From positions 1-43,793 of the IMG/VR virus record IMGVR_UViG_3300046005_001312: DNA of 43,793 nucleotides. One strand, written 5' to 3'. The notes beneath the pieces are model-generated. The model made no database searches and was not told the origin of the DNA. It saw only the letters and a list, made by a program, of their open reading frames with translations. Source of the stretch: a virus. Position numbers and translations under genes: made by a program. This document shows, piece after piece, positions 9,063 through 43,532 of the stretch. Each line of letters starts with the position of its first letter. Position 1 is the first letter of the stretch.

Positions 9063-9430
9063 CCGACGCCGACCTATCCGCCCTAGAGGCTGCCGCGCGG
9101 GCGGCGACGCCGGGGCCTTGGTTCCGGCCGATCGCGAATGACACGGCGATCAGAAGCGATGATGTCGATATCGCGCAGACCGTGGGCGCCTACGAACTGG
9201 AATGGGAGCGGATGGAGGCAGACGCCGCCTACATCGCCAAAGCGAACCCAGACGCCACGCTGCGGCTGATCCAGCGCGTGCGGGAGGCGGAGGCAGATGC
9301 GGCGCGGTTCCGGTGGCTGGACGATACCGCTTCCTACTACGGATCGGGTGACGATCTACGCATTGAGTGGCGCGGGTCTGGATCGTCCATCCGAGCCGCC
9401 ATCGACGCACTCACGCCACCCCGCGATTAA
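9059..9430 (+). CDS. Ead/Ea22-like phage protein
   Basis: This 123-residue protein has the ATPGPW motif near residue 15, followed by an acidic segment and the helical ADAAYIAKANPDATLRLIQR region. This layout is common in Ead/Ea22-like and related accessory phage proteins, whose role is not established. The C-terminal end forms a compact RFRWLDDTASYYGSG segment. It ends the first part of the rightward operon; a new promoter follows within 30 bases. Confidence 0.7.
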   Translation: MTDADLSALEAAARAATPGPWFRPIANDTAIRSDDVDIAQTVGAYELEWERMEADAAYIAKANPDATLRLIQRVREAEADAARFRWLDDTASYYGSGDDLRIEWRGSGSSIRAAIDALTPPRD

Positions 9431-9454
9431 ATCGCCGTAGCGCCCATTTCATCG

Positions 9455-9483
9455 TTGACGGGTCGCCGTGGGGGCGATATAAA
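9455..9483 (+). promoter_or_regulatory. Cassette-copy-1 promoter with palindromic spacer
   Basis: TTGACG (9455-9460), a 17-bp spacer and TATAAA (9478-9483) make a strong sigma-70 promoter. The spacer holds TCGCCGTGGGGGCGA (9463-9477), an imperfect 15-bp palindrome. The whole region from about 9441 to 9509 closely resembles the minus-strand region 39504-39437, including the leader GGGACGGGATGGCCG. Confidence 0.75.
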
Positions 9484-9528
9484 GGGTGTATCGGGACGGG
9501 ATGGCCGGCCCGGATTGGGAGAAAGAAA

Positions 9529-9777
9529 GTGGAAATCAACCTCAGCACCGCCAGCCGCGAATTGTTTATCGCTCTCGTCAACGACGCCGGGAACTGGAGC
9601 GGACAGCCCATGATTGGCAGGGGATCGAACATCCCAACAAACCTTCAGGCGCGCGGGAATATCACAGACTTAAAGAAGAAGGAGCTGATTGCGACGTTCA
9701 AGGATCGCGGCGATATGTTCGTTCATTTCACCGACAACGGGAAGTCGCTCGCATCCGCCATGGGCTTGCAGCTTTAA
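9529..9777 (+). CDS. Small winged-helix-like protein
   Basis: The start is the GTG at 9529, placed by a GGAGAAAG ribosome site and the promoter 45 bases upstream; the frame further upstream crosses the promoter. The 82-residue product looks like a winged-helix domain: helices through LFIALVND, then GNITDLKKKELIATF, then a wing ending FVHFTDNGKSLA. It is the first gene of cassette copy 1 and has no counterpart in copy 2. A regulatory role is likely but unproven. Confidence 0.7.
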   Translation: MEINLSTASRELFIALVNDAGNWSGQPMIGRGSNIPTNLQARGNITDLKKKELIATFKDRGDMFVHFTDNGKSLASAMGLQL

Positions 9778-9785
9778 CCCCACCC

Positions 9786-9803
9786 GGCGGGGGCAACCCC
9801 GCC
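9786..9803 (+). other. Leader hairpin with GCAA tetraloop
   Basis: GGCGGGG and CCCCGCC form a perfect 7-bp stem closed by a GCAA (GNRA-type) loop, 21 bases before the ATG at 9825. The sequence after it (CCACCCACACAGGAG) resembles that after the hairpin in the minus-strand cassette (CCACCAACACGGGAG). Confidence 0.65.
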
Positions 9804-9824
9804 ACCCACACAGGAGACGACGCA

Positions 9825-10037
9825 ATGACCGACTTCATTCTGACCCGCTCGGACCAAGGCGACGGCGGCTGGAGCCTGCACGCGCCTGGATCGACTGACG
9901 AGGATATCGCGACTGGCGAGGCGGCGCCGCTGGTGACCGGGGTATCCCGCAAGCGGGCCGGCGAATGGCTCCGACCGAACGCTCGGGACTATGCCGACGC
10001 CGCTCGTGCCTATGCGCGCGAGATCGAAGCCGCCTAA
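9825..10037 (+). CDS. 70-residue hypothetical protein
   Basis: The ATG at 9825 follows an AGGAG ribosome site and a leader hairpin. The acidic product has a beta-like start (DFILTRSDQGDGGWSLH) and a helical end (YADAARAYAREIEAA). It is not recognised. It lies between the winged-helix gene and the duplicated pair, and no copy of it exists in the minus-strand cassette. Confidence 0.6.
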   Translation: MTDFILTRSDQGDGGWSLHAPGSTDEDIATGEAAPLVTGVSRKRAGEWLRPNARDYADAARAYAREIEAA

Positions 10038-10073
10038 TCCCCCCGGAACTACGCCCGCATAGGAGACAAGCAA

Positions 10074-10382
10074 ATGACCGACACCATGACCGCCGCCGGC
10101 TACATCATCAACGACAACGAAGGCATCATCTACGGAACTGGCGCGACCGTTGACGCAGCGTGGGCCGATGCAGAATACGCGTTCCGCACCGCGCGAGTGG
10201 CGCTGCTGGACGACGACGACGACAGCACCGAGCAGTTGGGAAGCTGGACACGCCGGTCTGGCCTGACGGTCCACCCAGCATCCGCCGCGTTGCTGGCCGA
10301 GGTCGAAAGCAAAGGCGGTGATCTGGCCTGGCGCAAGGTGGGCGGCGTCGCGGTGACGCGCGACGAAGCGGACGCCGCATGA
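10074..10382 (+). CDS. Duplicated cassette protein, copy 1
   Basis: This 102-residue protein is a paralogue of the product at 38894-39178. By eye about 57 of 93 ungapped aligned residues match, including TVDAAW, DSTE, GSWT/GNWT and VGGVAVT. It is acidic and beta-rich and may fold as a small alpha/beta domain. An AGGAG site precedes the ATG. Its stop overlaps the HTH gene ATG by four bases, exactly as in the other copy, so the two act as a pair. The function is unknown; it may be a partner of the HTH protein. Confidence 0.75.
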   Translation: MTDTMTAAGYIINDNEGIIYGTGATVDAAWADAEYAFRTARVALLDDDDDSTEQLGSWTRRSGLTVHPASAALLAEVESKGGDLAWRKVGGVAVTRDEADAA

Positions 10383-10597
10383 CCCCCACCGACATATCCC
10401 CCACCCTAAAACGCCTCGGCCTAACACAGGTCGAGGCGGCGCGGATCACCGGCATCAGCCACCACGCACTGTCCCGATACGTGCGCGGCGTGCTGGTGAC
10501 GCCTCGGTGGCTGGTCCTGCTACTCGACGCCTGGGAGCGGTGCCCGGAGGCTTTGGCGGCGGCTCGTGCCGATTACGGCAGCACCACCCGCCAGTAG
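10379..10597 (+). CDS. XRE-like HTH regulator, cassette copy 1
   Basis: This 72-residue DNA-binding protein has an HTH at residues 7-35 reading TLKRLGLTQVEAARITGISH, then HALSRY. It is closely related to the minus-strand gene at 38709-38897, sharing TLKRLGLTQ, GISHH, LSRY, PRW and AWE. A 25-nt hairpin or palindrome lies in the 5' part of the gene (10413-10437). It overlaps the preceding gene by four bases and is the last rightward gene, 23 bp from the convergent end of the structural operon. It probably acts on the cassette promoters. Confidence 0.8.
   Translation: MTPTDISPTLKRLGLTQVEAARITGISHHALSRYVRGVLVTPRWLVLLLDAWERCPEALAAARADYGSTTRQ
10413..10437 (+). promoter_or_regulatory. Conserved hairpin/palindrome inside HTH gene copy 1
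   Basis: GCCTCGGCCT and AGGTCGAGGC flank an AACAC loop; all ten pairs form in RNA (one G-U). The equivalent site in the other copy (38851-38875) has a C-G pair changed to U-A and the G-U changed to G-C, so pairing is conserved while sequence varies. Confidence 0.6.
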
Positions 10598-11670: not shown

Positions 11671-12906
11671 CTACGAAGCCGACATAACGGCCAGCGTCAC
11701 CGCGCTGGATGCGCTGTCACGGCGGTAGAACCGTTTCACAATGCCATCCAGTGGCGCCGTCCCAGCGTTGTCGGACGATCCCACATACAGCGCCGACAAT
11801 CCAGTTGGCACGGCTCCGGAAGTATCGGATACCGCCGCCGCGCCGTTGAGACTGATCCGGAACGCATCGGTGGTGTAGCTGAACGCCACCACCGACGTAG
11901 ACCCTGCCGTGATCGCGCCCGCCGTCACGCTGGCCACCTGCGCCGCGCCCGATCGGACCACGGCTGTGACGTTGAGCGTTCCGGCGTCAATGCGGATGTC
12001 ATACGAGTTGTCGGTAGTGCCATCGTCCGTGTGAAACAGCGTCCGGTTGATGCCAGTCGGAGCCGCCGCCGGGACGATGAACTTCATGTAAAATGTGCCC
12101 TGCGTCTGCTCGAATGTGGTTTCGAGGCTGTTCAGGGCACACAGATCAGCGCCACGGGTTTTCGGCGCCGTCGTGGTGGCAATGAACGATCGGGGGGAAA
12201 GGCCAGTGTGCATGTTGTGGCCCCACAGATACACCCCCTTGGCGCCGTCTCCGATGTAGTTTGAGGCGCCATCGTCCCCGAGCAACTGGATACGGGGCCG
12301 CAACGCGTCGGTGCTGCCGGGGTTTGGGGTGCCAATCAGCGTGATGCGATACCAGCCGTTCGGATAGGCTTCCGGCGCAAGGGCCATGACCAGCACGCCG
12401 TTGCCGGTGGCTGCTCCTGTCGCGGTGCCGGTGGTCAGGTTGATGGTGCTGGATATGGAATTCGCCTGTGCCGCGCTGTCGAACATATACGCAATCAGCC
12501 GCGTCCGCCCGTTGGCCTTGACGAAAAACGACCACGCCCGATTGCCGCCGGCATTGATCGCTGGGCTGGATGTGAAGGTTGCGAAGGCGTGATGGGCAAC
12601 TGCGCTGCTGACATCCTCGATGATTTTTGTTGCGGTTGTCGTGCCATCCGGAGCAACCCCGCTGTCATCGTCCTGCGTTGCGTTGACGAAAGACGCAAGC
12701 AGGGCATGAGGATCGCTGGTATTCGGTAGGAGGTTTTGCGTAGAGCCTTCCACGACAAACCCATTGACCGCGCCCGCCGCCGTCCATGCCACCGCCGCCG
12801 TGTTCGCCGCTACCGACGTGATGACGCCAGCCGATCCAAGAAACTCGGCCGTCTCTGTCCGGGTGTAGGTGTAGAGGTCACCAAAATCGACATCTTCCAA
12901 GGGCAT
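11671..12906 (-). CDS. Tail fibre/receptor-binding protein with lectin-like domains
   Basis: This 411-residue protein has a short N-terminal segment (to about residue 60) and then two beta-sandwich regions. Residues about 60-245 look like the phage head-spike/carbohydrate-binding type (NLLPNTSDPHALLASF, RAWSFFVKANG, YPNGWYRITL). Residues about 250-405 look like a LamG/concanavalin-A-like lectin fold (GTFYMKFIVPA, FHTDDGTTDN, YDIRIDAG). It is the last large gene before lysis and the best candidate for cell-surface sugar binding. Confidence 0.75.
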   Translation of the reverse strand: MPLEDVDFGDLYTYTRTETAEFLGSAGVITSVAANTAAVAWTAAGAVNGFVVEGSTQNLLPNTSDPHALLASFVNATQDDDSGVAPDGTTTATKIIEDVSSAVAHHAFATFTSSPAINAGGNRAWSFFVKANGRTRLIAYMFDSAAQANSISSTINLTTGTATGAATGNGVLVMALAPEAYPNGWYRITLIGTPNPGSTDALRPRIQLLGDDGASNYIGDGAKGVYLWGHNMHTGLSPRSFIATTTAPKTRGADLCALNSLETTFEQTQGTFYMKFIVPAAAPTGINRTLFHTDDGTTDNSYDIRIDAGTLNVTAVVRSGAAQVASVTAGAITAGSTSVVAFSYTTDAFRISLNGAAAVSDTSGAVPTGLSALYVGSSDNAGTAPLDGIVKRFYRRDSASSAVTLAVMSAS

Positions 12907-25413: not shown

Positions 25414-26901
25414 TCAGTTTTCGACATATTCGAAACGGTCCAGCGTAATCATCGCGCTGGTCACATCTTCATCCTTGGACGCGCGCCACGAGAGTGGCAG
25501 AATCACGTCCACGTTCCGGCCGCTCGCGTTCGGGCTGCCATCGCCCGCGAAGAACAGACGCGGGACAGCGAATACGAGTGCCTGCTTGGAAAGGCTGTTG
25601 TAGACCGCGCTCGCCAGAGACGTTGCCGTGCCAGCGAGATACTTGGTCAGCAGCGCGTTGTCGCCGAAGTAGGGTTCGATCGTGCCGGTCACGTCCAGCG
25701 CATGGCCGGTGATGCCCTGCGCGTATTCCGTGTCGATTGCGTCGATCATCGTGCTGTTGTTGTTCAGGACGATGGTCATCGCGCGCACGAAATTCGGGGT
25801 CCCGAGGGTGGACCCGCCTTCCGTGAGCCGACCGACATGCACGCGCGTCACGAACGCCGGGAAGTCGGACAGGTCGAGGGTTGCATCGGGGCTGGCATCC
25901 AGCGCCGAGGTGCTGACGGACCCGCCCATGCCCTGATACGTGTTCGCGACCGTGATCGGCTGATTGAGCGCGAAGTTGTAGGTCTGCTGGGCAACGACCA
26001 TGCCGGGATGGACGAAATAGTTTGGCGTGCCCTGGCCGAGAAACCCGCGCTCGATGGTCTGACCGACCTGCGTGGTTCCGTTCTTGATCTGGTCGCCGAT
26101 CCACACCTTGATCGTCTTGCCGGTGCCGCTGTCCGTGGTCCATCCCGTGGGGCGGTGATCCAGAGGAATAGCCGTGGCGGTGATGGTGCCGGAAATGCGC
26201 GCCCATCCGTTCAGGGCCGCCGTGGCGAACTTGTCGCCCGTCGCGGTGCCGCCGATCTTGATCCACTGGCCAACCGCGAGGCCGAGGGTGGTGAAATCGA
26301 GAGCCGTGGAACCGAGGCCGGTTGCCGTGGCGGTGATATCGGCCGAGGCGCCCTGGAACCCGACGACCTTCATGCGGGCCGCTGCCGCCGGGGCGGCTTC
26401 ATCAGTCAAGCCGGCGCCGACAAAGGCCGGGACCGTGGCGCTGCCCGTGGTGCATTTTGCCACCACGTTGTTGCCGGTGACCCCGAACCCCGTGAGCCTC
26501 ACCAGTTGCCCGGCAACGAACGCCGTCCCGGTGGTGCAGGTCACGACCTCGCCAGTCGTTGCGACGGCGGTGATGACGCTATCGGCGGTGCCATCGTTGA
26601 ACCGCGTCGCCGTGTTCGTGAACGCGTTGTAGAACGCAGACCGGATGTCCACATCGTTCGGGCTGTCCGGGAACGGATACAGCATGTCATACGGCATGTC
26701 GCCGCTGGATTGCTTGCCGATCCGCAGCACGTCCGACGACATGCGATCCGAACGCATCTCGCCACTCTCGGCGAACGTCGGAACGAGATTGAGCGTCTCG
26801 CCATTGACGCGGCGGAGACGCATACGCGGCGTGCCGGGCGTGGTCCCGACAGTAGTTTCCAGGACCGACGTGATCTGGGTGCGGTTAGACGAGGGCATCA
26901 T
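25414..26901 (-). CDS. Major tail tube protein
   Basis: This 495-residue protein has the N-terminus of phage tail tube proteins (TSVLETTVGTTPGTPRMRLR, then SGEMRSDRMSSDVLRIG). A large central Ig-like or insert region (residues about 110-250) is followed by tube domain segments (DFPAFVTRVHVGRLTEGG, TIVLNNNSTMIDAID). It is long for a tail tube, which suggests decorating insertions. Two adjacent ATG codons (26901, 26898) overlap the preceding gene by 17 bases in another frame. Confidence 0.82.
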   Translation of the reverse strand: MMPSSNRTQITSVLETTVGTTPGTPRMRLRRVNGETLNLVPTFAESGEMRSDRMSSDVLRIGKQSSGDMPYDMLYPFPDSPNDVDIRSAFYNAFTNTATRFNDGTADSVITAVATTGEVVTCTTGTAFVAGQLVRLTGFGVTGNNVVAKCTTGSATVPAFVGAGLTDEAAPAAAARMKVVGFQGASADITATATGLGSTALDFTTLGLAVGQWIKIGGTATGDKFATAALNGWARISGTITATAIPLDHRPTGWTTDSGTGKTIKVWIGDQIKNGTTQVGQTIERGFLGQGTPNYFVHPGMVVAQQTYNFALNQPITVANTYQGMGGSVSTSALDASPDATLDLSDFPAFVTRVHVGRLTEGGSTLGTPNFVRAMTIVLNNNSTMIDAIDTEYAQGITGHALDVTGTIEPYFGDNALLTKYLAGTATSLASAVYNSLSKQALVFAVPRLFFAGDGSPNASGRNVDVILPLSWRASKDEDVTSAMITLDRFEYVEN

Positions 26902-36523: not shown

Positions 36524-36921
36524 CAGTTCAGAGTGGCGCCCGTGTCCAGATCATCGCCCCAATCCGTCCCATGGCCCGCCGTATCCGCGTCGGCCTGAGC
36601 GATTTCCTTCTTGCCCGGAGGCGAGAATGACACGTCACGCCATCCGGCGCGGCACTTGAGCCAGAAGATGCAAGCCGTAACCGCATCCTTGCCCGTGCCC
36701 TCTGTCGCGCGCTTGAATAGCGATTGAGCGACTTTCGCGTTGGCTTCAGCGGCGGCGGTCTCAAGTTCCGACTGAAAGTGAAGCCGCAACGTCTTCGGGT
36801 CGCACCCGATCACCAGCCCAATGTCAGCCTGTGGCACGCCATAAGCCGCCATCGCCTTGACCTGCGAACGCTGCGCGTCAGTCGGCTGGAAGCTCGGTCT
36901 GCCTCGTTTGATTGCGCTCAT
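36523..36921 (-). CDS. terS: Terminase small subunit-like protein
   Basis: This 132-residue protein is directly upstream of the large terminase. The first 60 residues form an HTH: RGRPSFQPTDAQRSQVKAM, YGVPQADIGLVIGCDPKTLR. The next helix (ETAAAEANAKVAQSLFKRAT) would oligomerise, as in small terminases, and the acidic tail could contact the motor. I use the ATG at 36921, which overlaps the methyltransferase gene by 44 bases; the longer frame is a shadow. Confidence 0.8.
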   Translation of the reverse strand: MSAIKRGRPSFQPTDAQRSQVKAMAAYGVPQADIGLVIGCDPKTLRLHFQSELETAAAEANAKVAQSLFKRATEGTGKDAVTACIFWLKCRAGWRDVSFSPPGKKEIAQADADTAGHGTDWGDDLDTGATLN

Positions 36922-38179
36922 GTTCCACTTCGGTGAATGACCGACCGTCGCCTTCAAGCGTGGCAACCTGGCCGGTGAATGCCTGCCACCGCTTGACGGC
37001 GACATCGACGTAGGCGGGAGACAACTCAATGGCGTGACACGCGCGCCCGGTCATCTCAGCCGCAATAATGGTGGTGCCGGAGCCGCTGAACGGTTCGTAA
37101 ACCGCCTGGCCGGGGCTGCTGTTGTTCTCGATCGGACGCTTCATGCACTCGACGGGCTTCTGAGTGCCGTGGCCATGGCCACCGTCCTCACGCGCCTTTA
37201 TGTTCCAGACTGTGGTTTTGTCCCGGCCGCCAAACCAGTGGCCTGTTCCGCCCTTCTTGACAACATACCACGCGGGTTCGTGCTGCCAGTGATAATGGCC
37301 GCGGCCTAAAGTCATCCGGTCTTTCGCCCAGATAATCATCGCACGGTGCTCGAAGCCAGATGCCTCAAGTGAAGCAAGAACCGTAGTCGTGAACATTGAT
37401 GCGTGCCAGACATAGGCGACGTCGCCGGGGAACAGCGCCCAGGCTTCGGACCAGTCTGCTCTGTCGTCGTTCAAAACAATCCCGGACTTGGCCTTGTTAT
37501 TCGAAGTGCGCGTCGGGTCATACTCGACCCCATACGGCGGGTCCGTAACCATCAAGTGCGGCTTCACCCCATTCAAAGCCCGGCCCACCACCAGCGCATC
37601 GGTAGAGTCCCCGCAAACAATCCGGTGCCGACCCAGCACCCAGACATCCCCCGGAACCGTAACAGGCTCGGCCGGCGCGTCAGGCACGTCGTCCGGGTCC
37701 GTCAATCCCTCGGTGGTCTCGGCCAACAGCGCCGCCAATTCCAAGTCCGCGAAGCCGGTCAGCCCCAGGTCGAAGCCCTCGAACTTCAGATCCTCAAGCT
37801 CGACCCGCAACAGCGCATCATCCCAGCCCGCGTTCAGCGCCAACTTGTTGTCGGCCAGGACGTAAGCCTTCTTCTGAGCGTCGGTCCAACCCCGCGCCAC
37901 CATGACCGGGACCTCAGCGATACCGAGCGTCCGGGCTGCCATCACGCGACCGTGGCCGGCAATGATCCCGCCGGCTTCGTCGACCAGAACCGGCGTCGTC
38001 CAGCCCCATTCGCGAATGGAAGCGGCGATCTGCGCCACCTGGGCGTCGGAGTGGGTCCGAGCGTTGCGAGCGTATGGCACCAGGGCCGCCACAGGGCGCC
38101 TCTCGACGGCATCGGCTGGCCATGTAGCGGGGAATGGGTCGGGAGCCACTGTCGCGCGTTTGGTGCCGGCAGCGGCCAT
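36878..38179 (-). CDS. ParB-like/DNA methyltransferase fusion
   Basis: This 433-residue protein has an N-terminal ParB/sulfiredoxin-like domain (residues 28-105, with IIAGHGRVMAARTLG) and a C-terminal N6/N4 DNA methyltransferase: DPPYG at 213-217 and EPFSGSGTT at 362-370. Such fusions are common next to terminase genes in phages. The ParB part may direct the enzyme along DNA. It probably protects DNA before packaging; the target site is unknown. An AAAGGAC site precedes the ATG. Confidence 0.93.
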   Translation of the reverse strand: MAAAGTKRATVAPDPFPATWPADAVERRPVAALVPYARNARTHSDAQVAQIAASIREWGWTTPVLVDEAGGIIAGHGRVMAARTLGIAEVPVMVARGWTDAQKKAYVLADNKLALNAGWDDALLRVELEDLKFEGFDLGLTGFADLELAALLAETTEGLTDPDDVPDAPAEPVTVPGDVWVLGRHRIVCGDSTDALVVGRALNGVKPHLMVTDPPYGVEYDPTRTSNNKAKSGIVLNDDRADWSEAWALFPGDVAYVWHASMFTTTVLASLEASGFEHRAMIIWAKDRMTLGRGHYHWQHEPAWYVVKKGGTGHWFGGRDKTTVWNIKAREDGGHGHGTQKPVECMKRPIENNSSPGQAVYEPFSGSGTTIIAAEMTGRACHAIELSPAYVDVAVKRWQAFTGQVATLEGDGRSFTEVEHERNQTRQTELPAD

Positions 38180-38280: not shown

Positions 38281-38622
38281 TCAGGTCGGCCGCTTGAACC
38301 GCTCAGCCCGTGCCGCCTGGGTCTTCCGAGCGTGGTGCGTGCCACAAAGCGCCATCCCGTTGTCAGGATCGAGCGCCGCGCCACCGTCTTTCCGTTCGGC
38401 GATGTGGTCGGCAAATAAGCGGACGGGATGGGCTGCGGTGCAACGGTATCCGTTCTCAACCGCCTCGCATCTCCACCCGGCGCGGTGCATCACGACTTGG
38501 CGCCATGCTCGGTGTTCAGGGGTCAGAAGATCGGGATCAGCCCGCTTGGGTTCCAGCCGCGCAGTCCGCGTATCCAGAACCGGCAGGCTAGACGACAGAA
38601 ACCGCAGCTTGCTTGGTGGCAT
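38281..38622 (-). CDS. HNH endonuclease (terminase-associated)
   Basis: This 113-residue HNH protein carries the signature LFADHIAERKDGG, then NGMALCGTHHARKT, with the ADH His pair, Asn and the final HH. A Cys pair (C in WRCEAV and YRCTAAH) may bind zinc. Small HNH proteins next to terminase genes assist specific cleavage of DNA at cos during packaging. It is the first gene of the packaging block. Confidence 0.88.
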   Translation of the reverse strand: MPPSKLRFLSSSLPVLDTRTARLEPKRADPDLLTPEHRAWRQVVMHRAGWRCEAVENGYRCTAAHPVRLFADHIAERKDGGAALDPDNGMALCGTHHARKTQAARAERFKRPT

Positions 38623-38708
38623 GGCTGCGGTTCCGGTTCGGATTATCGGGATCGGCAGTCGCTATAACCGCCAGGGTAGCCAGCCTTGGCACACATTGCC
38701 GGAGGGTG

Positions 38709-38897
38709 TCAAGCGTCTTCGCGCGCCTTGGCCAACGCATCGGGGCACGCTTCCCATGCGGCCAGGATCAGCAGCAGCCACCGAGGCGCGGGGAGGGCGT
38801 TGCGGGAGTAGCGCGATAGGGTGTGGTGGCTGATCCCGAGGATCGCAGCGGCCTCGGTCTGGGTTAGACCGAGGCGCTTGAGGGTTGGGTTGATCAT
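38709..38897 (-). CDS. XRE-like HTH regulator, cassette copy 2
   Basis: This 62-residue regulator is paralogous to the plus-strand gene at 10379-10597. The HTH reads TLKRLGLTQTEAAAILGISH, then HTLSRYSR. The conserved C-terminal PRWLLLILAAWEACPDAL helix may dimerise. The ATG overlaps the preceding cassette gene by four bases, as in copy 1. The 86-bp space after it has only a 17-codon frame without a ribosome site. It probably binds the palindrome in the promoter at 39490-39462 and/or the internal palindrome. Confidence 0.8.
   Translation of the reverse strand: MINPTLKRLGLTQTEAAAILGISHHTLSRYSRNALPAPRWLLLILAAWEACPDALAKAREDA
38851..38875 (-). promoter_or_regulatory. Conserved hairpin/palindrome inside HTH gene copy 2
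   Basis: On the minus strand GCCTCGGTCT and AGACCGAGGC are perfect 10-bp inverted arms with an AACCC loop. It occupies the same codons (RLGLTQTEA) as the hairpin in copy 1 but with compensating changes. It could act as an operator or as an mRNA hairpin. Confidence 0.6.
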
Positions 38898-39178
38898 GCG
38901 TCGGCTTCGGCCGTCGTAACAGCGACGCCGCCGACCATCCGCCAGGCGATGTCGCCGCCCATGTCATTCACGTCGGCAATCACCGCATCCGAAGCAGGCA
39001 GGCACCGCAACCCGCTTTCGCGCGTCCAGTTGCCCAGGCACTCGGTGCTATCCACGTCGTCGCCGATAAGCTCGACCTGCGCTGCTGCCAGTGTGGCGCG
39101 GGCGTCGTCCCATGCTGCGTCTACCGTGTCGCCTGCGCCCTGAATAGTGCCGTCGTTGTCGGTGATAATATAGGCCAT
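38894..39178 (-). CDS. Duplicated cassette protein, copy 2
   Basis: This 94-residue protein is the paralogue of 10074-10382. It starts AYIITDNDGTIQGAGDTVDA and ends AWRMVGGVAVTTAEADA. The ATG follows GGGAG and a leader hairpin. It is coupled to the HTH gene by a four-base overlap. Conservation of the pair in both cassettes suggests that the two proteins work together, for example as regulator and co-regulator; no enzyme motif is seen. Confidence 0.75.
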   Translation of the reverse strand: MAYIITDNDGTIQGAGDTVDAAWDDARATLAAAQVELIGDDVDSTECLGNWTRESGLRCLPASDAVIADVNDMGGDIAWRMVGGVAVTTAEADA

Positions 39179-39202
39179 GGTCTGTGCTCCCGTGTTGGTG
39201 GA

Positions 39203-39215
39203 GGGGCAAAGCCCC
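39203..39215 (-). other. Leader hairpin before cassette protein copy 2
   Basis: On the minus strand GGGGC and GCCCC pair around a TTT loop, 24 bases before the ATG at 39178. The following CCACCAACACGGGAG resembles the leader of the gene at 9825. Confidence 0.55.
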
Positions 39216-39223
39216 CTGTTGTG

Positions 39224-39415
39224 TTAGGCGGCGTCCGCCAGCCGGATCAGGTGAGCGGCCAGGGCGCGGGCCTCGTTTGCCGTCATCCGCAGCGTTGCGG
39301 GACATTCAAACAACGGGTCGTCGTGCAGGATCGCGATCGGCGCCTTAACCGCCTCGGCAACGCGCATGTGCGCCGGCGTCACGATCACGGTGTAGGTTGC
39401 TTCCTGAATGTGCAT
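39224..39415 (-). CDS. 63-residue hypothetical protein
   Basis: The ATG at 39415 follows an AAAGGAC ribosome site and the copy-2 promoter by 46 bases; the frame further upstream runs through the promoter. The product has a short beta start (ATYTVIVTPA) and a helical end (TANEARALAAHLIRLADAA) with a TLRMTANEARALA motif seen in various small phage proteins. It is the first gene of cassette copy 2. The role is unknown. Confidence 0.65.
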   Translation of the reverse strand: MHIQEATYTVIVTPAHMRVAEAVKAPIAILHDDPLFECPATLRMTANEARALAAHLIRLADAA

Positions 39416-39461
39416 GTCCTGGTCCTTTTCTCGGGTTCGGCCATCCCGTCCCCATGACCAC

Positions 39462-39490
39462 ACCATATCGCCCCACGGGCGAACCGTCAA
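39462..39490 (-). promoter_or_regulatory. Cassette-copy-2 promoter with palindromic spacer
   Basis: On the minus strand TTGACG (39490-39485), 17 bp and TATGGT (39467-39462) form a promoter. The spacer holds TCGCCCGTGGGGCGA (39468-39482), a perfect palindrome around a GTG centre. It resembles the promoter at 9455-9483. It could drive cassette 2 and the entire late operon. Confidence 0.7.
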
Positions 39491-39514
39491 CCGAACAATG
39501 GACGCACAGGCGAT

Positions 39515-40060
39515 TTATTTACGTTCAAGCCGCGTCCCGTCGTAATGGTCCACCAACCGCAGCATTGCCGCCTCGACCATCGCCGCAGTCCGGTCCCGTG
39601 GTAAACCGCGGTTGCTGGTGATGGCAGCCAAAGAGAGCCGCGACACCAGCAGGTCCGATGCGTAAGCGTGCAGCGTCAGGCCGAGCGCATCCCGTGCCGC
39701 ATGGTGCCGCGTCAGAGCCGCGGCTTTGCCCCAGGCTTTGACGTGCGGGCATGGCAGGTCGATTGCCCCTCGACCACCAGCCGAGGATGCCCCCAGCACG
39801 CCGACCTCATAGTCCCGCCGATAGCGTTCGCCAGCCATGACCAGTGCGTTCGTCCACCGCTCCGGCGTCTGGCGATGGAGCATGAGCAGCGGGTCGTATC
39901 GCCGCTCTCCCAGGATCAGCCGCGCCTCACGCCGCAACGGGTCCATGTCTTCGGGATCGGCCCACGCGGCTTTCATAACGCCAGGATGGTCGAGGACCAC
40001 CGCCGCTGCTGTCCGGGAGGATGGTGACGGGGTTGGCTTGGGTTGCTTACGGGGCTTCAT
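39515..40060 (-). CDS. Hypothetical regulator-like protein next to the origin
   Basis: This 181-residue protein has a disordered basic start (MKPRKQPKPTPSPSS) and two helical regions: GERYRRDYEVGVLGASSAGG and a C-terminal DALGLTLHAYASDLLVSRLS followed by RDRTAAMVEAAML. The style resembles DUF6456-type HTH proteins (from memory). It is just downstream of the iteron region and just upstream of the cassette-2 promoter, so an origin-binding or late regulator role is possible. The ATG has a GGAG site and overlaps a 13-codon leader frame. Confidence 0.55.
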   Translation of the reverse strand: MKPRKQPKPTPSPSSRTAAAVVLDHPGVMKAAWADPEDMDPLRREARLILGERRYDPLLMLHRQTPERWTNALVMAGERYRRDYEVGVLGASSAGGRGAIDLPCPHVKAWGKAAALTRHHAARDALGLTLHAYASDLLVSRLSLAAITSNRGLPRDRTAAMVEAAMLRLVDHYDGTRLERK

Positions 40061-40098: not shown

Positions 40099-40116
40099 TT
40101 CCTGTCCCCTCCTAAA

Positions 40117-40250
40117 TGTCACCATTGTCGCCTTTGTCACCTTTTTCTAACCCCTACGCATGTGAGATTTAGAACAGATATAGAACACATTGTGTTCATA
40201 CACATATGGGAACTGGCTGAAAAAAGGTGACAAACCCGACAAAGGTGACA
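40117..40250. other. Candidate replication origin with opposed 9-bp iterons
   Basis: TGTCACC-type units begin at 40117, 40126 (TGTCGCC) and 40135, exactly 9 bp apart. Their reverse, GGTGACA, begins at 40226 and 40244 with a degenerate CCCGACA at 40235, again 9 bp apart. Between the triplets is a less GC-rich stretch with two TAGAACA copies and the palindrome GAACACATTGTGTTC (40183-40197). It lies just after the helicase gene. Iterons, AT-richer centre and replication neighbours argue for an origin; an operator is the alternative. Confidence 0.6.
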
Positions 40251-40262
40251 TTCCGACCTCCG

Positions 40263-41852
40263 TCAACGCCGCAAAGCCCAGCGAGGGCGGCGCGTATCGT
40301 TACGGTCCACCGTCAGCTTGGCACCGTCTACCACGTTGTTATTGTTCTTTGTTAGCCACCTGCCCAACCGCGCCGGTGATATTGTGGTGCCCGACCGCTC
40401 TGACGCCGCCTCTAGGCATGCTTCCCGGAACATCGGGCAAACAAACCCATGCCCATCGGTTTCCTCAGCCCGAAGTATCATTTCTGGGACGGACAGCCTT
40501 GCAGCGATGCCGACCTCTTTCTCCCAGGCCCCAAAGAAGGCAGCGCGGGATGCTCGTGTGGGGTCCTCTGCCCGTGCCAAATCCATCGACTTCACCGGGT
40601 CCACGGCACCGAGCCACACCAGCGCGGAGCGGACCAAGTTAGACCACCGCTCGAAGGATGCCAGCGGCGGGAGTTGGTTTGGGTATCCGGCGCACACATA
40701 GGCCCGGCCGATCGTGAGGCACGCGGCGACATAGTGCCCACGGTCGGCCATCACGTCCGCCACCGGGTTGCCGGAGAATTCCCTCGCCTCGGGGTTTTCG
40801 AGGTTGGCATCGAGGCGGCAGATCATCGTTCGGCGCACCATGTCGGCGGGGGCACTCAAATTGTTGCCGTTGGCAAACACGGTGAAAGTGTTGGCGATGC
40901 GGATGTCGGTGGACGTGCCCAACGGCCGGATTTTGAGCAACGGGCGCTCCGTCACTTGGTTCAGGAAGTCCCCACCCATCATCTCCGACACATTGTCGAT
41001 GGCGATGATCTGCTGTCCGGAAAGAGCGGCGGCGATCAGTCGCTTTTCGGTCTCGTTCACGTCGGGAGACATGGCGATCACGGCGCATCGTTCGCCCGTA
41101 GCGATGGCCGATGCGGTGTCGAGTAGGTAGCTTTTGCCGGTGCCAGGCTGCGGCGCGGTGGCGGCATGCATGGGCACCGCCGGCAGTAGCGCGCCCCGTA
41201 GGACCACGGTTAGGATCATGGACAGCGCGACCGATCGGCTTGCATCGTCGGCAAACGGGAACTCGGCCAAGAGCGATTGCAGTGTATCCAGGGCGCGGGC
41301 GGCGTCGGCTTGCGTCGGCTTGGCGGGGATGGGAGGCATCTTCGGCGGTCCGATCAGGACCAGTCCGGTTGCCGGATCGTAGCCTTCTCGGTCAAGGATC
41401 GTGCCATCAGGCCGCATGGTTGGTGTGGAGATGACGCCCGCGATCGGGGGGAATGGCCACTCCCCGAACATGGCCGCGACCTGTTCAACGACCTCCTTCG
41501 GCGGGTCGATGCGGACGATCTCCCCGTTCTTGTTCATGCGCTCCCATTCCGCGACGGTGCCCATGGTCCGGCCGAGGATGGGGATCGTGACCGGGACGAT
41601 CCCCGGTATCCCGATCACGTTGCCGTCCGAGGTTTTGGCTTGGGCCGATGCCGTGCGGACAAGCATTCGGTCCCGCTGATAGAACGGCACGCCTGCGTGA
41701 TCCATGGCCGCTATTGCCTGATCGGCCGCAACGTGGCGCTGGCCGCTGATGACGCTGATGACGGGCCGGCGAACGTCCTCAGACACGGGTGCGGCGCGCG
41801 ACTTTTCTAGCGCCTCACGTGCGACCTGTTCCGGATCAAATGGCAGGCTCAT
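40263..41852 (-). CDS. Phage AAA+ replicative helicase-like protein
   Basis: This 529-residue protein has Walker A PGTGKS at residues 236-241 and Walker B-like IIAIDN at 282-287. An arginine-rich sensor-like region follows (VRRTMICRLDANLENPEARE). The type is often found in phages together with a primase-polymerase, as here. The N-terminal 200 residues are not recognised. It probably unwinds DNA at the nearby iteron region. The ATG overlaps the preceding gene by four bases. Confidence 0.8.
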   Translation of the reverse strand: MSLPFDPEQVAREALEKSRAAPVSEDVRRPVISVISGQRHVAADQAIAAMDHAGVPFYQRDRMLVRTASAQAKTSDGNVIGIPGIVPVTIPILGRTMGTVAEWERMNKNGEIVRIDPPKEVVEQVAAMFGEWPFPPIAGVISTPTMRPDGTILDREGYDPATGLVLIGPPKMPPIPAKPTQADAARALDTLQSLLAEFPFADDASRSVALSMILTVVLRGALLPAVPMHAATAPQPGTGKSYLLDTASAIATGERCAVIAMSPDVNETEKRLIAAALSGQQIIAIDNVSEMMGGDFLNQVTERPLLKIRPLGTSTDIRIANTFTVFANGNNLSAPADMVRRTMICRLDANLENPEAREFSGNPVADVMADRGHYVAACLTIGRAYVCAGYPNQLPPLASFERWSNLVRSALVWLGAVDPVKSMDLARAEDPTRASRAAFFGAWEKEVGIAARLSVPEMILRAEETDGHGFVCPMFREACLEAASERSGTTISPARLGRWLTKNNNNVVDGAKLTVDRNDTRRPRWALRR

Positions 41853-43217: not shown

Positions 43218-43532
43218 CTACGGCGTTTCTCCCGATGGGTCAACCCATGGCCGGCGCTGCACACAATCCCCAAACCGGACGACCCACGTATCCGGGTCGA
43301 TCGTGACCAGCCATTGCCGGCCGTCGATCTCCACCCACGCGAACCATTCCCAGCCGTATTGGTCGCCTTCCTTGGACCCCCACCACGCCGTAAACGGCTG
43401 CCCGTTGATCGTGAGCCGTGCCCAGATCGTCAGAGCGGGATTACGGCCCGGGTCGTCCAGCACGATCGGCCCCGCGTCGCACATGCCATGCCGCGCGCCG
43501 TTGACCTTGGGGCCGAGGGTGACGGGACCCAT
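43218..43532 (-). CDS. Hypothetical 104-residue protein
   Basis: The ATG lies on the VRR-NUC TGA (TGATG). The product is beta-rich with many tryptophans (FTAWWGSKEGDQYGWEWFAW), perhaps a small barrel. No family is recognised. It lies between the VRR-NUC and RHH genes in the replication/repair transcript. Confidence 0.65.
   Translation of the reverse strand: MGPVTLGPKVNGARHGMCDAGPIVLDDPGRNPALTIWARLTINGQPFTAWWGSKEGDQYGWEWFAWVEIDGRQWLVTIDPDTWVVRFGDCVQRRPWVDPSGETP

Follow-up and report, generated by a model that had tools for sequence, protein, structure and literature searches.

Inverted copies of a probable Aca-like, self-repressed accessory cassette at the two ends of a phage early region

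The window analysed here is the whole of one virus record (43,793 bases), and it holds two inverted copies of a short operon that starts at a predicted sigma-70-type promoter and ends in a gene for a small helix-turn-helix (HTH) protein. We consider it fairly probable that both represent an Aca-like accessory cassette that represses itself, with one operator type in common and with cargo genes that can be exchanged. The plus-strand cassette contains genes A (9529..9777, 82 aa), B (9825..10037, 70 aa), C (10074..10382, 102 aa) and D (10379..10597, 72 aa), the last encoding an MqsA-type HTH protein. The minus-strand cassette contains A' (39224..39415, 63 aa), C' (38894..39178, 94 aa) and D' (38709..38897, 62 aa), the latter also encoding a small HTH protein; gene B is absent from it. 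D and D', both proposed autorepressors, are each encoded last in their own cassette and overlap the preceding gene by ATGA, in agreement with the four-base overlaps reported by the first-pass annotation.

That the two regions form an inverted duplication, as this annotation proposed, is confirmed by alignments that are significant at both the DNA and the protein level. On the list of inverted repeats in the window the C-D block ranks first (10399-10566 with 38722-38889, 168 nt, 71%) and the promoter block second (9428-9514 with 39431-39517, 87 nt, 72%), the next entry being 50 nt long. Within a promoter block of 79 nt, 58 positions are identical between the copies. As a null, 300 random 79-mers drawn outside the cassettes and outside a local hairpin were compared with the opposite strand, giving a mean of 39.2 and a maximum of 47 against 57 for 9430-9508; a looser null, with cassettes and hairpin kept and only part of the strand covered, reached a maximum of 54. 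In both copies the similarity begins with the TAA that ends the gene upstream (TAAATCGCC). The protein pair described earlier as about 95 residues long and about 60% identical corresponds to C and C', with 57 of 92 residues identical (62%, E 1e-36), and the small HTH proteins D and D' indeed form a second pair (43 of 60 identical, 72%, E 7e-31). Substitutions between the plus and minus copies are commonest at third codon positions (13, 12 and 30 at the three positions of D; 23, 25 and 51 for C), which points to real genes under constraint.

Scans of viral contigs yielded five related records, referred to as G001 (42.3 kb), G002 (20.6 kb), G003 (12.1 kb), G004 (10.3 kb) and G005 (11.6 kb). Both relatives that are long enough to include the two sites (G001 and G002) have both cassettes, so that the pair is found in related phages as well. 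G003, nearly identical to the window, and G004 are fragments reaching the minus site only, and in each the minus cassette is present. Two pattern scans of genome contigs (140 and 26 stretches) gave no confirmed relative, proteins P0003 and P0004 (the latter being D) had no match in the phage collection, and P0006 had none in plasmids. The nearest named relative of the virus by terminase is 58% identical.

The layout of the record was derived from family searches on part of its genes. A direct terminal repeat of 126 nt indicates that the record is circular or circularly permuted. Consequently, the statement that the cassettes bracket the late operon holds as far as the positions are concerned, but they bracket the early region equally. 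On the plus strand the early genes run rightward and end at 9430 (among them Gam-like, RecT-like and ThyX genes), and on the minus strand genes run leftward through the record end down to 39515 (map reading), including an HTH gene, two methyltransferases, Prim-Pol and a DUF6456 gene (39515..40060, minus strand; PF20057, 35.2 bits at a cut-off of 26.3) which adjoins the minus cassette in the window and in G001-G004. The late genes lie on the minus strand from 38622 to about 10900, with HNH, ParB/methyltransferase, small and large terminase, head, portal and tail genes. As noted in the first pass, one cassette is found at each end of this operon. The plus one comes after the early genes transcribed rightward and is read towards the 3' end of the late operon; the minus one comes after the leftward genes, where it separates the replication genes from the HNH/terminase end of the late operon, its first neighbour being the HNH endonuclease gene (38281..38622, minus strand; phrog_589, 1.9e-14). 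Both cassette promoters are directed outwards from the early region. Rfam scans (gathering scores) and tRNA scans gave no matches. The phage has three genes of the DNA methyltransferase type (1263-2018, 2043-2585 and 36878-38179), one of them with a ParB-like part.

In a home-made scan, the plus promoter (TTGACG-17-TATAAA, 9455..9483), with agreement at 10 of 12 positions, scored highest of all sigma-70 candidates in the window. Its minus-strand counterpart (TTGACG-17-TATGGT, 39462..39490) was found by the home-made scan and by a stock scan; the latter requires T as the last base of the second hexamer, and therefore lists the minus promoter and not the plus one. The spacer between -35 and -10 holds a predicted operator in both cases, namely TCGCC-GTGGG-GGCGA on the plus strand (9463..9477) and TCGCC-CGTGG-GGCGA on the minus strand (39468..39482). 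Exact matches to TCGCC-N5-GGCGA occur only at these two places in the 43,793 bases, where 0.24 would be expected, and as many were found in one out of 100 shuffles. Palindromes with five-base arms around N5 are present at 1.21 per kb in the window, and the chance of an inverted repeat with arms of at least 5 in an 18-bp stretch of the window is P ~0.034; the two operators are not independent evidence, since they are related by descent.

Eight promoters from five records were aligned, six of which are distinct (G003 being near-identical to the window, and the minus promoter of G004 equal to that of G002 in the promoter block). The exact palindrome is seen in 5/8; the other three have a CCGCC left arm (CCGCC-N5-GGCGA), and all three are minus promoters (those of G001, G002 and G004, out of five). 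One additional exact TCGCC-N5-GGCGA is present outside the cassettes in each of G001 and G002. A second, imperfect operator-like dyad lies 31 bp before the main operator in both window copies (TCGCC-N5-GCCCA at 9432..9446 on the plus strand; 39499..39513 on the minus strand), and an accessory role may be suspected for it. Its TCGCC arm is present in all eight aligned promoters, and in the plus promoters its right arm has one mismatch in G001 and G002 and two in the window.

Downstream of the promoters the leader block GGGACGGGATGGCCG is found at 9493..9507 (plus strand) and, as an exact second copy, at 39438..39452 (minus strand). These are its only two occurrences in the record, in keeping with the earlier description of a common leader, and the block is exact in seven of the eight aligned promoters (5/6 when only distinct ones are counted). 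We disfavour its interpretation as an extension of the first gene, as its ATG is in frame with that gene only in some copies (by eye). Neither a coding frame nor a clearly stable fold accounts for the block. A G+C hairpin, previously described as a leader hairpin, does occur at both loci; its position is nonetheless intercistronic rather than in the leader, separating the first gene from the second. It lies 5' of the ribosome-binding site CACACAGGAG in the plus cassette (9786..9803) and 5' of CACGGGAG in the minus cassette (39202..39216). A function as riboregulator is disfavoured given the inconsistent outcome of folding against shuffles (z of -2.3, -0.5, -0.9 and +0.7 at four loci).

The last genes of the cassettes resemble the DNA-binding part of MqsA. 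With the MqsA HTH domain PF15731 (cut-off 30), D (P0004) scores 34.7 bits and D' (P0007) 22.3, below the cut-off; with TIGR03830 the scores are 33.7 and 28.5 at a cut-off of 61.8. The PF15731 match spans only model positions 70-129 of 131, and the proteins, at 72 and 62 aa, hold no counterpart to the remainder of MqsA. Among the missing parts is its zinc-binding N-terminal domain, the match beginning at model position 70. The HTH regions of the two proteins are nearly identical (SHHALSRY and SHHTLSRY). A structure model of D' (pLDDT 93) resembles HigA2 (Z 9.9), MqsA (8.8), Aca2 (8.8), Aca10 (7.5), Aca1 (7.2) and Aca7 (5.5); the fold is a common one, eukaryotic POU domains being level with Aca10 at Z 7.5, and a Foldseek search with the model gave no match reaching E 0.001. 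When a profile of D (A3) was compared with the PDB sequences at E up to 10, 15 sequences were found, including MqsA and PezA and none named Aca. D also matches 17 plasmid records, with 36-46% identity among the matches listed, and most of the annotated ones are named MqsA.

Palindromes of similar geometry precede operons with distant homologs of D. Directly 5' of the first gene of these small operons, TAGGGC-N5-GCCCTA occurs twice in L030 and TAGGCA-N5-TGCCTA twice in L034 (L031-L033 had scores identical to those of L030 and are not counted separately, and L047 is the L034 contig). In a test on loci fetched after the operator idea had been formed, using relatives of the L034 protein, two of two had a palindrome in the same place; TAGGAA-N5-TTCCTA is found once before the operon with the D homolog in L048, and TAGGAC-N5-GTCCTA twice in L049. 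The rate of such 6-N5-6 palindromes in the homolog records, operon sites included, is 0.34-0.94 per kb. Only in L030 is the promoter above the scan threshold; those of L034, L048 and L049 were placed by eye. The D homolog is not the last gene in L034 and L048, where a further open frame follows on the same strand (32 and 2 bases on, respectively), and at the more distant L035 homolog (37% identical) the palindrome geometry does not fit, as judged by eye.

The cassettes persist in G001 and G002 while other modules have been replaced. G001 has terminase, portal, protease, head and tape-measure genes of its own, and the terminase large subunit, the major head protein and two tail proteins of the window (25414-26901 and 11671-12906) are unmatched there at E 1e-4. 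Neither G001 nor G002 has a match to the helicase-like protein (40263-41852), and Prim-Pol has only a weak one, in G002 (25%). With other modules replaced and the cassettes present in both, the latter have kept their place on either edge of the early region. The cargo is more variable: gene A has no match in G001 or G002, where the plus cassette has another first gene instead (110 aa in G001), B is kept in both, and C is kept in G001 and missing from the plus cassette of G002, which has an additional small frame and in which B directly overlaps D. In the minus cassette, A' and C' are kept in G001-G004. None of the cargo proteins A, B, C, A' and C' matched a described family at a meaningful level, PADLOC, run on nine proteins, gave two weak matches, both to D', and the structure model of C' was set aside at a mean pLDDT of 52.

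The copies also exchange sequence. In the plus D gene of G002, 13 consecutive informative sites (out of 56) are of the minus type, forming a tract that equals G002's own minus copy and that was matched in 0 of 20,000 permutations; outside it, all sites are of the plus type except one of the minus type and one unlike both. The tract covers part of the helix-turn-helix, which fits a shared binding specificity and likewise mere recombination between repeats.

At the minus site G005 (L040/L050) has no cassette. Its DUF6456 gene is directly joined to the sequence that elsewhere lies 3' of D', with the HNH gene next (35% identical to that of the window). Aligned to the window, its tail covers 40060-39529 (90.6%) and then 38724-38634 (93.4%), thereby skipping about 0.8 kb; similar gaps are seen against G001 and G004, and in the comparison with G001 the two pieces have six bases in common. 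Over its 11,577 bases, G005 contained no D protein (E up to 0.1), no exact operator and no leader block. The record is a fragment that ends short of the plus site, without matches to plus-side genes (checked on the L040 part). What it does retain is a late-promoter-like element. In the window this comprises the near-dyad TTGACACCCTCCGGCAATGTGTGCCAA (27 bp) together with TATAGC and GATAAT (38642..38712, minus strand), a candidate for a separate late promoter or an activator site, and its core GGCAATGTGTGCC is found in the window, in G001-G004 and in G005 (L050). Given that the cassette is cleanly absent while this element is kept, the minus cassette is optional, and is probably not the late promoter that the phage needs. 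The DUF6456 frame of G005 ends with the last codons of D', so that loss of the cassette seems likelier than its never having been acquired, which we take as a weak indication. The contig ends of L022 and L050 both read GGGGC[T/C]GGAAC, past which G004 continues; this might be a cos end.

The G005 junction bears most directly on the two-copy late/early switch put forward in the first pass, in which D and D' would time the change from early to late expression and the minus promoter would drive the late operon. In favour of this, in the window and in G004 (large terminase at L025:3359-5170) the minus cassette directly precedes the late operon on its HNH/terminase side, and in G001 as well provided that its two contig ends join; read-through is also possible, as no terminator-like site was predicted on the minus strand from D' to the HNH gene. 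However, the minus cassette of the window and G001-G004 is missing from G005, in which DUF6456 is joined to HNH without it and the late-promoter-like element is nonetheless present. This absence in a relative weakens the switch and makes an accessory module more likely, and we regard the switch as unlikely. The same clean absence, together with the six bases common to both boundaries in G001 and the recombination between copies, might instead be taken to mean that the cassette is selfish or merely tolerated duplicated DNA, kept by recombination and without any coordinated role. Against this, substitutions are biased to third positions both between and within copies, the promoter block is conserved while other modules are replaced, and the cassette genes match no recombinase family; we hold this explanation to be quite unlikely.

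It might also be argued that the operon is a toxin-antitoxin module, with C as the toxin and D as an MqsA-like antitoxin that represses the operon. The match of D to the MqsA HTH (34.7 bits; structure Z 8.8 for MqsA) agrees with this, as does the gene order, in which C comes first and overlaps D by ATGA in the manner of toxin-first modules. Yet D is without the N-terminal part of MqsA and D' remains under the Pfam cut-off, C matches no described toxin, no MqsR match was obtained for C, C', B, A or A', and the plus cassette of G002 has D and no C. A toxin-antitoxin module thus appears very unlikely.

For the preferred reading, a pair of Aca-like self-repressed cassettes, the course of events might be as follows. 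Upon infection the host polymerase would fire both sigma-70-type promoters, and the early products would be the small cargo proteins (A, B and C; A' and C'), along with D or D' encoded at the end of each cassette. Dimers of D would then bind TCGCC-N5-GGCGA between -35 and -10 and shut the promoters, perhaps aided by the weaker upstream dyad at a distance of about three helical turns. We infer binding and repression by both proteins from this anatomy. Repression would limit the early burst of accessory proteins, and would stop transcription of the minus cassette from entering the late genes and that of the plus cassette from entering their 3' end in antisense; self-repression would make sense where one promoter faces the late operon and the other is directed into its end in antisense. 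Because the operator is common and the recognition region nearly so, D and D' would probably repress both promoters. Such cross-regulation, already suggested in the first pass, is supported at the level of sequence by the shared palindrome, the near-identical HTH regions and the G002 tract, and we judge it somewhat better than an even bet.

As to the cargo, counter-defence or other host-takeover proteins are the most likely content. Anti-defence genes proper are our favoured guess on the grounds of architecture and turnover, at rather less than even odds; with no cargo family matched, this would be guilt by architecture. More tentatively, the pair may be a two-locus anti-defence regulon, in which D and D' would make up a new Aca family of HTH-only MqsA relatives with a shared operator code and would jointly form a single pool that shuts the two cassettes in step. 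Gene conversion would keep their DNA-reading domains alike and leave the cargo free to change, and A, B, C, A' and C' would be new counter-defence genes.

The closest described systems are acr-aca operons. For the Aca families analysed in PMC9410906, the core promoter of each contains an inverted repeat and the HTH gene lies downstream of small genes; Aca is reported there to repress its own promoter, and high acr transcription to interfere with downstream phage genes. The cassettes resemble the operons of Aca1, Aca2 and Aca10, as described in PMC9410906 and PMC9410881, in having a strong promoter, an inverted repeat in the core promoter, small variable genes and a downstream HTH gene with a similar fold, and a second repeat in some of those promoters recalls the upstream dyad. 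In contrast, D has no sequence match to the solved Aca proteins, the cargo is not known as anti-CRISPR, and the cassettes come in two inverted copies at the two ends of an early region. We therefore do not claim membership of the Aca group for D and D'; the resemblance is one of anatomy. In SIRV2, according to PMC11065993, one conserved regulatory sequence precedes many early accessory genes near both genome ends, and Aca8 (gp01/gp54) is the proposed repressor. The repetition of one regulatory sequence before accessory genes is shared with the cassettes, whereas the SIRV2 system is described in that source as having archaeal promoter elements, mostly single genes instead of operons ending in a repressor gene, and a winged HTH in Aca8. 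Finally, mqsRA shares the MqsA-type HTH, and a Tistrella MqsR/MqsA-like pair (L038, recognised partly by eye in an unannotated record) has a palindrome, TAACCT-N3-AGGTTA, in its promoter spacer; unlike in mqsRA, D corresponds to the HTH part only and no MqsR-like gene was found beside it.

Our literature searches showed no description of paired, inverted Aca-like cassettes, which is no proof of their absence. If the interpretation is right, the cassettes would mark the store of exchangeable accessory genes of this phage group, and the operator together with the D gene could serve as bait for possible anti-defence genes in phages whose hosts are uncharacterised. The pair would also offer a natural test of two repressor copies that jointly control two distant operons, with gene conversion keeping them compatible.

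Two further sites of possible regulatory interest were seen on the leftward side of the early region. The interval between the helicase-like gene and the DUF6456 gene contains an imperfect inverted repeat (40115-40252, 50-nt arms, 78%), possibly an origin or a regulatory site. Another promoter-like site is located at 43243 (minus strand), with a palindrome over its -35 (ATGGGTTGACCCAT), and this might be a leftward promoter.
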